Positions 8,641 through 54,458 of a stretch of 64,000 nucleotides of DNA are shown here, in pieces. Both the position numbers and the translations under genes were made by a program. This stretch comes from Candidatus Avoscillospira avicola (GTDB taxonomy: Bacteria; Bacillota; Clostridia; Oscillospirales; Oscillospiraceae). Below the pieces are notes generated by a model, which saw nothing but the letters and a program-made list of their open reading frames with translations, ran no database searches and was not told where the DNA came from. The stretch covers positions 1-64,000 of the forward strand of contig DVHE01000068.1 of NCBI GenBank assembly GCA_018712245.1, in the 5' to 3' direction. Within the stretch, counting starts at the first letter, position 1, and each line of letters begins with the position of its first letter.

Positions 8641-8731
8641 TATTGCAAGAAATATCCGCGCCGCGCCGGAATGCCGCAGAAGTATGCCGGGCGGCGCAAA
8701 TTGACAGAAATTTCGTTGACGGGTGATAAAT

Positions 8732-9118
8732 ATGTTCTCCAAAATCGGCAATTGGTTTCGTAATTTTATGATGGGCCGCTACGGTTCCGACCAGCTGAAT
8801 CTGGCCCTGCTGGGCCTTGGCATTGTCATGATGGTGCTGGGTGCGCTGCTGGGTATGTGGTTCCGGTGGGCACAGGTTTTGAACTTCCTCTGCTATGTGC
8901 CTTTGGTCTGGTGTATTTTCCGGGTCTACTCCAGGAACATCGCTGCGCGTCGCCGGGAAAACCAAGCGTTTCTTGGCTTTTTCCAGCGCTTTAAGGACCG
9001 GGAGCATCGGTATTTTCACTGCCCCAAGTGCGGCCAGATGGTCCGCGTGCCCCGGGGCCGCGGAAAGATCAACATCCGCTGCCCCCGGTGCAGCGAACGG
9101 TTTATTAAAAACACGTGA
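8732..9118 (+). CDS. Small membrane protein with C-terminal zinc ribbon
   Basis: A 128-residue protein of unknown function. Two adjacent membrane helices lie at about residues 22-42 and 48-66, then a basic linker (RRREN). The C-terminus contains CPKC near residue 96 and CPRC near 118, a typical four-cysteine zinc ribbon. The architecture, two helices plus a ribbon, is common in Clostridia hypothetical proteins. ATG at 8732 follows GGGTGAT; an upstream GTG at 8723 overlaps that site and is less likely. It ends 13 nt before a terminator hairpin that is itself duplicated (see element at 9132). Confidence 0.75.
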   Translation: MFSKIGNWFRNFMMGRYGSDQLNLALLGLGIVMMVLGALLGMWFRWAQVLNFLCYVPLVWCIFRVYSRNIAARRRENQAFLGFFQRFKDREHRYFHCPKCGQMVRVPRGRGKINIRCPRCSERFIKNT

Positions 9119-9131
9119 TGGCACAAGCGAA

Positions 9132-9368
9132 AATGCCGCTGCGGACTGTCGGTCCGCAGCGGCATTTTGAGACTGTCAAAAAACCTCGCTGAAGACTGCC
9201 GTGATAGAGCAGCGGGGGATGGGTGCAGGGGGCGAAGGGCCCCCTGCACGTTCAATCAGTTCGTTTTTGCAACTTATTGAAGTTGCAAAAACGGGGGACA
9301 GCGGGGCGAAAATACTTTTTCGACACGCTGAATGCCGCTGCGGACTGTCGGTCCGCAGCGGCATTTTG
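9132..9368. mobile_element. Structured ~162-bp element between two identical terminator hairpins (copy 1)
   Basis: A terminator palindrome (AATGCCGCTGCGGAC, loop, GTCCGCAGCGGCATTTT) occurs at 9132-9169 and again, 38 of 38 identical and in the same orientation, at 9331-9368. Between them lies a sequence that begins ACTGTCAAAAAA and ends CTTTTTCGACACGCTG. Inside are a GC hairpin (GTGCAGGGGGC/GGCCCCCTGCAC) and an AT hairpin (TTTTTGCAACTT/AAGTTGCAAAAA). Near-terminal TGTCAAAAAA and TTTTTCGACA form imperfect inverted repeats. It carries no ORF. A homologous copy lies at 41.1 kb and a decayed one at 54.3 kb. The convergent genes on each side keep one terminator each. Confidence 0.75.
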
Positions 9369-9383
9369 TGATTTCATTCGGAG

Positions 9384-10313
9384 TTATTCAGCGCTGATAT
9401 CGATCCCTGCTTTTTTGAGGATGGTGGGCACGTTCTTCTCCGCGCCGATGGCCATGATGTGAACGCCGTCGCAGAGCTTCTGCTCCTTGATCTGCGCGAT
9501 CATTTCGGCAGCCATCTCAATGCCCATGGCCATCGGCAGACCCTTGACGCCCTTCTCCTTGCCCTCGGCGGCAGCGGCAGCCAGACGGTCGATCATATGC
9601 TGAGGCACGGCGATGCCGGGGACGTTCTCGTTCATGTACTTGGCCATACCGGCGGCCTTGAGCGGGATGATGCCGGCCATGATGTGGGCCTTAATGCCGG
9701 CCTTGTCCACTTCGTCCATAAACCGCTTAAACTGCTCCAGGTCAAAGATGCCCTGGGTCTGGATGTACTTGGCGCCGGCGTCCACCTTCTGGCGGAGTTT
9801 GTTAATCTGCAGGAACAGCGGCTCATAGACCGGCGTGACAGCGGCGCCCTTGTAGAACCGGGGCGTTTCCTTGAGGTCGTTGCCGCCGCAGTCCTTGCCG
9901 CTCTCTTCCATCTGGGTGAGCATCCGCAGGATACCCACGGAGTCCAGATCGTAGACAGGCTTGGAGTCCTTCACGTCGCCCACGGTGGGGTGATCGCCGG
10001 TCAGCGCCAGCATGGTGTCGATGCCAAAGGCGGCAGCGGAGAGCATATCGCCCATAATGGCCATCCGGCTGCGGTCGCGGCCTGTCATCTGAATGATAGG
10101 CTCGCAGCCGGCCTCCTTGAGCTTGATGCAAAGGCCCAGCGAAGTGGCCTTGAGGCTGGCGGACTGCATATCGGTGACGTTGATGCCGTGAACCTTGCCG
10201 TTCAAGAGGGCGGCGGCCTCCATCTGCTCGGAGAAGTCATAGCCCTTGGGGGGCGCCATTTCTGCGGTGACGCCAAATTTGCCGCTTTCCAGTGCTTTCT
10301 CTAACAGGCTCAT
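9384..10313 (-). CDS. metF: Methylenetetrahydrofolate reductase, MetF-type
   Basis: A 309-residue TIM-barrel flavoenzyme reducing 5,10-methylene-THF to 5-methyl-THF. Family landmarks include TAEMAPPKG near residue 16, NVTDMQSA near 45, QMTGRDRSR near 75 and LALTGDHPT near 102. It is translationally coupled to the MetV-like gene: the upstream stop and this ATG share position 10313. In acetogenic and related anaerobes the MetF-MetV pair works as one enzyme. Whether it serves methyl supply for methionine or a Wood-Ljungdahl pathway cannot be told from this window. Confidence 0.94.
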   Translation of the reverse strand: MSLLEKALESGKFGVTAEMAPPKGYDFSEQMEAAALLNGKVHGINVTDMQSASLKATSLGLCIKLKEAGCEPIIQMTGRDRSRMAIMGDMLSAAAFGIDTMLALTGDHPTVGDVKDSKPVYDLDSVGILRMLTQMEESGKDCGGNDLKETPRFYKGAAVTPVYEPLFLQINKLRQKVDAGAKYIQTQGIFDLEQFKRFMDEVDKAGIKAHIMAGIIPLKAAGMAKYMNENVPGIAVPQHMIDRLAAAAAEGKEKGVKGLPMAMGIEMAAEMIAQIKEQKLCDGVHIMAIGAEKNVPTILKKAGIDISAE

Positions 10314-41053: not shown

Positions 41054-41274
41054 CGGGGCGCATCCAATCGGATGCGCCCCGTAAACTGTCCAAAAACTAT
41101 GATGAAAGCCCACGCAACAGTGCAGCGGGGGGTGTGTGCGGGGGGCAAAGAGCCCCCCCCGCACGTTCAATAAGGGTGGATTTTTCAACTTTTTCAAAGT
41201 TGAAAAATCCTAGGCAGCGGGGCGAAAAGACTTTTTCGACACGCTGCGGGGCGCATCCAAGCGGATGCGCCCCG
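41054..41274. mobile_element. Structured ~165-bp element between two terminator hairpins (copy 2)
   Basis: The local terminator CGGGGCGCATCC-loop-GGATGCGCCCCG occurs at 41054-41081 and again at 41247-41274, differing by one loop base, in the same orientation. The sequence between starts AAACTGTCCAAAAA and ends CTTTTTCGACACGCTG, as in copy 1. It contains GTGCGGGGGGC/GCCCCCCCCGCAC and the AT hairpin TTTTTCAACTTT/AAAGTTGAAAAA. The AT hairpin differs from copy 1 on both arms but stays paired. It again separates two convergent genes. Confidence 0.75.
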
Positions 41275-54304: not shown

Positions 54305-54458
54305 GAACCCTGGGCCCTGACCCAGCTCCGCTGTCTCGGTTGCTGAGACTTTTTCAAGTCGCAGCAGCCCCTGATTGAACGCACAGGGGCCCTTCGCCCC
54401 CTGCACCCATCCCCCGCTGCTCTGTCACAGAAACGTTCCGCATCGTATTTGACAGTGT
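54305..54458 (-). repeat. Decayed third copy of the terminator-associated element
   Basis: On the minus strand it begins ACTGTCAAAT at 54458 and keeps AGCAGCGGGGGATGGGTGC (54425-54405) and the GC hairpin GCAGGGGGC/GGCCCCTGTGC. A short GACTTgaaaAAGTC hairpin stands in for the AT stem. The CGACACGCTG end is lost. A terminator-like hairpin flanks its start, but no second copy of that hairpin is seen at the other end. A 41-codon frame at 54221-54346 nearby has no clear ribosome site. Confidence 0.65.

Follow-up and report, generated by a model that had tools for sequence, protein, structure and literature searches.

The 64,000-nucleotide stretch of Candidatus Avoscillospira avicola DNA analysed here (the window) presents, between two convergent genes, a 38-bp hairpin (AATGCCGCTGCGGACTGTCGGTCCGCAGCGGCATTTTG) that occurs twice, at 9132-9169 and 9331-9368, in direct orientation and with 0 mismatches. 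The locus raises the question of what kind of element came to lie between the two copies and how the hairpin came to be there twice. The preliminary description had reported this repeat and, between its copies, 162 bp without an ORF, with imperfect inverted ends and two internal hairpins, and all of this is confirmed. The best explanation, to which we assign a probability of about 0.88, is a MITE of the IS1182 type whose target is chosen by hairpin structure and whose insertion duplicates the complete hairpin.

Anatomy of the element and its copies

The element, a 162-bp non-autonomous MITE, occupies 9169-9330 on the plus strand and ends in GAGACTGTCAAAAAAC ... CTTTTTCGACACGCTG. Its left terminal inverted repeat (9169-9184, plus strand) follows the consensus [C/G]AGACTGTC[A/G]AAAAAC, the corresponding IS end being CAGACTGTCGAAAAAG, while the right repeat (9315-9330, minus strand) reads CAGCGTGTCGAAAAAG on the minus strand. 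The left copy of the target hairpin (9132-9168), a target site duplication of 37-38 bp, is a perfect direct repeat of 9331-9367/8, and the right copy (9331-9367) was scored as terminator-like on the plus strand. The base just outside the AGACTG motif is a C in 42 copies and a G in 39, a split which suggests that the element probably takes in that base, so that the duplication at 9.2 kb would amount to 37 bp. The first internal hairpin (9223-9249, arms GTGCAGGGGGC/GCCCCCTGCAC) retains its pairing in 78-81 of 81 copies, with changes seen on both sides of the pairs, and the arms of the second (9262-9293, CGTTTTTGCAACTT/AAGTTGCAAAAACG) covary between species (TTGCAAC, TTTCAAC, TTGAAAC, TTTAAAC, TTCAAAC); both are retained in nearly all copies, the arms shifting together across species. 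Comparison of the window with Rfam returned tRNAs only, the MITE matching no curated RNA family. The convergent neighbours, both named by eye, are a small zinc-ribbon-like protein gene (8723-9118, plus strand, from CPKC..CPRC) and a methylenetetrahydrofolate reductase-like gene (9384-10313, minus strand). Insertion has shortened the T-run of the minus-strand gene, and it is plausible, as predicted, that each gene is left with a terminator of its own.

A second full-length copy, 77% identical to the first, lies at 41084-41246 on the plus strand. Its left hairpin copy (41054-41081) is identical at 27 of 28 positions to the terminator-like right copy (41247-41274), giving a 28-bp pair with one mismatch whose sequence differs from that of the 9.2-kb hairpin. 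In a decayed third copy (~54328-54456, minus strand) only the left end is accompanied by a hairpin (GCCGTGG..CCACGGC). The window contains precisely two occurrences of the right-end motif, where 0.09 are expected. Genome-wide, 88 BLAST rows correspond to ~45 copies in the metagenome-assembled genome (MAG) of the window (2.4 Mb, 87 contigs, 84% complete), and matches were found in six of the eight genomes of the genus, this one counted, with dozens of copies in sister species. The copies measure ~161-163 bp and have no conserved ORF, their ends being conserved in 81-88 copies. Being short, non-coding, bounded by terminal inverted repeats and dispersed in many copies, the element has the properties by which MITEs are recognized. 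Four contig ends of genome G000 (C5, C6, C33 and C87) break within MITE copies at ~127 bp, as expected from the k-mer limit of an assembler in repeats.

This element resembles prokaryotic MITEs generally in being short, gene-free and multicopy, with inverted-repeat ends, and probably in being moved in trans; it differs from them in that the target duplication is a whole palindrome of 20-39 bp. Target duplications usually range from 2 to 14 bp. Group IIC introns also insert at terminator hairpins, but the element described here has no intron structure and no reverse transcriptase, and is an inverted-repeat DNA element with a duplication.

Hairpins at the flanks of the MITE

The flanks were compared for 80 non-redundant full-length copies from six genomes for which both flanks were present, with ~240 mismatched left/right pairs as the control for flank repeats and 2116 points drawn at random from these loci as the control for hairpins. 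In 44 of the 80 copies the left and right flanks share a direct repeat that scores above the best, and hence above every, mismatched pair, and these repeats are 19-39 bp long and nearly all lie 0-3 bases from the element; the target site duplication, and with it the proposal that a MITE-like element leaves a whole hairpin duplicated, is therefore general. A hairpin adjoins the element on the left in 54 copies, on the right in 65 and on both sides in 47 (59%), compared with 6%, 7% and 0.5% of the random points. Among the 47 two-sided pairs the orientation is direct in 41 and inverted in four, with two ties. The sequence of the hairpin varies from site to site, which indicates that the hairpins are part of the target and not of the element. 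At 33 of the 80 copies at least one flank has no hairpin; some copies (L127, L048, L116 and L012) show only 7-8-bp repeats beside one hairpin.

It had been proposed at the outset that intrinsic terminators are the target. Hairpins of the terminator type do predominate and T-runs are enriched beside them, but the MITE was also found in REP-like palindromes and at the tip of another palindromic element, so that the target is better described as a palindrome.

Further repeats were observed near these sites. At L132 (G006:C27) the flanking hairpins agree in their basal 8 bp (TGGCGGAC / GTCCGC) and have entirely different inner stem-loops. In G006, a palindromic element (GGCATCACCGCACAATT..AATTGTGCGGTGATGCC) has the MITE inserted in its tip, where little is duplicated (L145, L146, L133), and two more multicopy repeats of the genus lie beside MITE sites (L202:726-864 and L203:1261-1480). 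Gene-free elements of ~240-260 bp with the same type of end were seen between matched hairpins at L120 (G000:C6:6900-7782) and L255 (G004:C8), their ends reading CAGCGTGTCTAAAAA..TTTTTTGACAGTCT and CAGGCTGTCGATAAACC..CTTTTCGACACGCTG; this end type thus appears to be common to several MITE families.

Relation to IS1182 elements and their empty sites

The ends of the MITE match the IS end CAGACTGTCGAAAAAG at 13-15 of 16 positions on the left and at 14 of 16 on the right. One IS1182-type transposase is encoded in the sister genome G003 (PF05598, E 2.7e-22); its gene begins ~80 bases in from an element end, where a hairpin is followed directly by AGACTGTCGAAAAAG. Relatives of this transposase in Oscillospiraceae and other Clostridia belong to elements with hairpin-flanked CAGnCTGTCGA ends, and a full-length homologue scores 401.9 bits against the NCBIfam model NF033551 for IS1182 (cut-off 270) and contains the Pfam domains DUF772 and DDE_Tnp_1_6. 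The window element, having no ORF, does not count as an IS1182 insertion sequence in its own right; its relatives encode the transposase, which within the genus occurs only as fragments, the autonomous copies there being cut by contig ends. The MAG of the window, 84% complete, yielded no intact IS1182 of the same clade. Two candidate partners were rejected, the only DUF772 transposase of the MAG because it belongs to the IS5 family and has unrelated ends, and an IS1182-like fragment on contig C73 because it has no matching end. In an IS5-family IS at L211:9601-11165 (G000:C60), whose terminal repeat is 22 bp long (TATATAATGTCTACTGAACAAT), the transposase gene is interrupted by a stop codon. 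The sequence common to MITE and IS is limited to the terminal ~16 bp, and it is from these ends that we infer a partner IS, an IS1182-type transposase that would mobilize the MITE in trans.

The closest known systems are IS1182 elements with CAGACTG-type ends in Enterococcus faecium (including a relative of ISEfa7), in Streptococcus phages (annotated as IS1562) and in Clostridia, which have terminal repeats of the form CAGnCTGT..., insert at hairpins and duplicate the whole hairpin directly. They differ from the window element in being ~1.5-1.6 kb long and encoding a transposase, whereas the latter is 162 bp long and gene-free, with ends that are imperfect and asymmetric. We studied 22 full-length autonomous copies from Clostridia, Enterococcus plasmids and Streptococcus phages, obtained by reading 29 candidates, from which seven chance pairings (L094, L103) were set aside while L282 was kept. 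In 15 of the 22 a complete hairpin is directly repeated against the IS ends with a spacer of 0 nt. Among the remaining copies at least six (L060, L061, L068, L076, L078, L094) bear hairpins of unlike sequence at their two ends, the outcome expected if two inserted IS copies had recombined. The same duplicated-hairpin anatomy was found in the elements of E. faecium plasmids and Streptococcus phages and, with a 20-bp hairpin, in an IS1182 element of a Rhizobium plasmid; no hairpin duplication was found in the Peribacillus copies or in ISCfr1, a distant member seen in one copy and with other ends.

The duplication itself is evident from the comparison of filled and empty sites. When the flanks of the IS in phage Javan87 are joined over one hairpin, they agree with Streptococcus phage Javan90 in all 405 bases, and the joined flanks of plasmid 2 of E. 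faecium DO are 99.8% identical over 467 bases to the E. faecalis plasmid NZ_CP102071.1; in both pairs the filled site has two hairpins and the empty site one. A third plasmid site provides a partial case, with one hairpin and a right flank that is only partly conserved. For the autonomous relatives, orthologous empty sites thus carry the single hairpin that had been predicted, and duplication of the whole hairpin is a target behaviour which the MITE and the autonomous members have in common.

For the MITE the duplication is seen in a paralogous comparison of a repeat within a repeat. Each of 11 uninterrupted REP-like repeats of the sister genome G006 contains the palindrome TAGGGGCGSATTNNATATSCGCCC once, whereas at L042, L138 and L139 it stands on both sides of the MITE. 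The uninterrupted repeats (L267-L277) are 11 exact copies in which TAGGGGCGSATTNNATATSCGCCC is followed, ~11 bases on, by GCAACCACCGG. At the C33/C6 junction, itself inferred from common element sequence, two elements alternate with three copies of one hairpin, the trace of a further insertion into a hairpin that had been duplicated before. The empty-site prediction is accordingly borne out for the MITE by paralogous repeats, while no orthologous empty site was found when the 9.2-kb, C82 and C19 sites were checked in sister species: the flanking genes are present, with a different terminator or another insertion between them, and searches with the 41-kb and C35 sites returned matches to the flanking genes. 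This outcome is attributable to the terminators, which differ between sister species.

Target choice, duplication and alternatives

The IS1182-like ends, the hairpin flanks and the empty sites together identify the element as an IS1182-type MITE with the complete hairpin as its target duplication. In the proposed mechanism the transposase would pick its target by structure, namely a palindrome able to form a hairpin or cruciform and in most cases an intrinsic terminator, with the extruded hairpin, rather than the double-stranded palindrome, as the probable form recognized. Strand transfer would then take place at the 5' feet of the stem, each of the two 3' ends of the element being joined to a different strand, and repair of the resulting gaps of 20-39 nt would copy the whole palindrome and so leave a complete hairpin on each side. 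The faithful copying of asymmetric stem edges on both sides at L065, L071 and L075 fits such a plain duplication by staggered cuts.

Several sites are not explained by a plain staggered cut. The hairpin pairs of L022, L136 and L283 are mutually inverted, and at L006 (G000:C78) the flanking hairpins share a 34-bp core and differ in their outer base pairs, which are complementary on each side. At L283, an autonomous IS1182 copy, reverse-complementing the left hairpin gives the right one exactly, with no further difference. Such sites are what one would expect if hairpins were cut at their 3' feet and the free 3' ends copied their own arms, so that each half-target restored a hairpin on its side: the outer pairs of L006 are each complementary to their own flank, and L022 and L136, like L283, are better matched in inverted orientation. 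However, direct pairs predominate (41 of 47), the asymmetric edges of L065, L071 and L075 agree with plain duplication, and template switching at palindromes can also produce inversions and compensations at a later time. Since the asymmetric edges favour plain duplication, we set this fold-back copying aside as the main mechanism and judge it improbable in that role; the exceptions at L283, L022, L136 and L006 could have come about by template switching after the insertion or else by a fold-back version of the reaction. A combined scheme, in which a clade of IS1182-type transposases, used by full elements and high-copy MITEs alike, would recognize extruded hairpins as such, integrate with a stagger of 20-39 bp and restore a complete hairpin on either side of the insert, sometimes by fold-back or in flipped orientation, is tentative and, taken as a whole, rather doubtful.

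The preliminary description had also considered an RNA-like element or one of unknown kind. That another, undescribed mobile system, RNA-based or using a transposase of a different family, moves the MITE and has reached IS1182-like ends by convergence would be compatible with the ~16 terminal bp to which the identity with IS1182 is confined, with the failure to find a partner IS in the MAG and with internal hairpins conserved through paired changes. Against it, the end sequence and the very unusual duplication of a whole hairpin are both those of IS1182 elements from within this genus and family, inverted-repeat ends suit a DDE transposon, and no Rfam family was matched; we regard such a system as very unlikely, and the ends and target behaviour place the element with the IS1182-family insertion sequences. 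Least credible of all is that two terminators of the convergent genes pre-existed, were made alike by gene conversion or selection and acquired the element between them by chance, for although both window sites lie between convergent genes and in sister species each flanking gene has its own hairpin, the hairpins are specific to their locus and yet matched within the site at 44 of 80 copies, 0-3 nt from the element, the empty sites of autonomous relatives, in contradiction to this scenario, have one hairpin, and uninterrupted G006 repeats have one palindrome.

Insertion at stem-loops is a trait that the IS1182-type MITE shares with IS1272 and TnSha1 of the IS1182 family, which target stem-loops, often transcription terminators, without a sequence consensus (PMC5678879, PMC4923244). 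In IS1272, however, the stem-loop is deleted or replaced and there is no target duplication (Wan et al. PMC5678879; Furi et al. PMC4923244), whereas the MITE site keeps the stem-loop twice: hairpins stand on both sides of 47 of 80 copies and are duplicated in the filled/empty pairs of autonomous members, which is not the pattern of stem-loop replacement. The direct repeats given in the literature for the family are of 4 bp or none (PMC3281130, PMC3196728, PMC5678879). Three elements, ISPse1, ISCaa15 and ISCfr1, have a transposase of the same family, and the first two differ by their 4-bp direct repeats (PMC3281130 and PMC3196728, respectively). In Wan et al. (PMC5678879), duplication of a whole stem-loop figures only as a hypothetical pathway b, drawn beside the loss of the hairpin. 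In the IS1182 papers compared, we found this duplication proposed, without demonstration, and no MITE that uses it. The element had been put forward as something undescribed, which thus holds only in part: a demonstration of the duplication and a MITE that uses it fall on the new side, while IS1182 relatives were known to target stem-loops, and a duplication of the entire hairpin existed as a proposal on paper. The direct repeats listed by ISfinder for IS1182 members presumably range from 0 to 60 bp, and whole-hairpin duplication may therefore be partly catalogued.

For part of the IS1182 family, the comparison proves directly that insertion duplicates a complete terminator hairpin, the reverse of what is reported for IS1272, which deletes the hairpin, and it identifies a high-copy MITE family that exploits this duplication. 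Terminators would in this way be safe harbours that survive the insertion. The way in which a DDE transposase chooses a hairpin and makes a stagger of 20-39 bp becomes open to direct testing.
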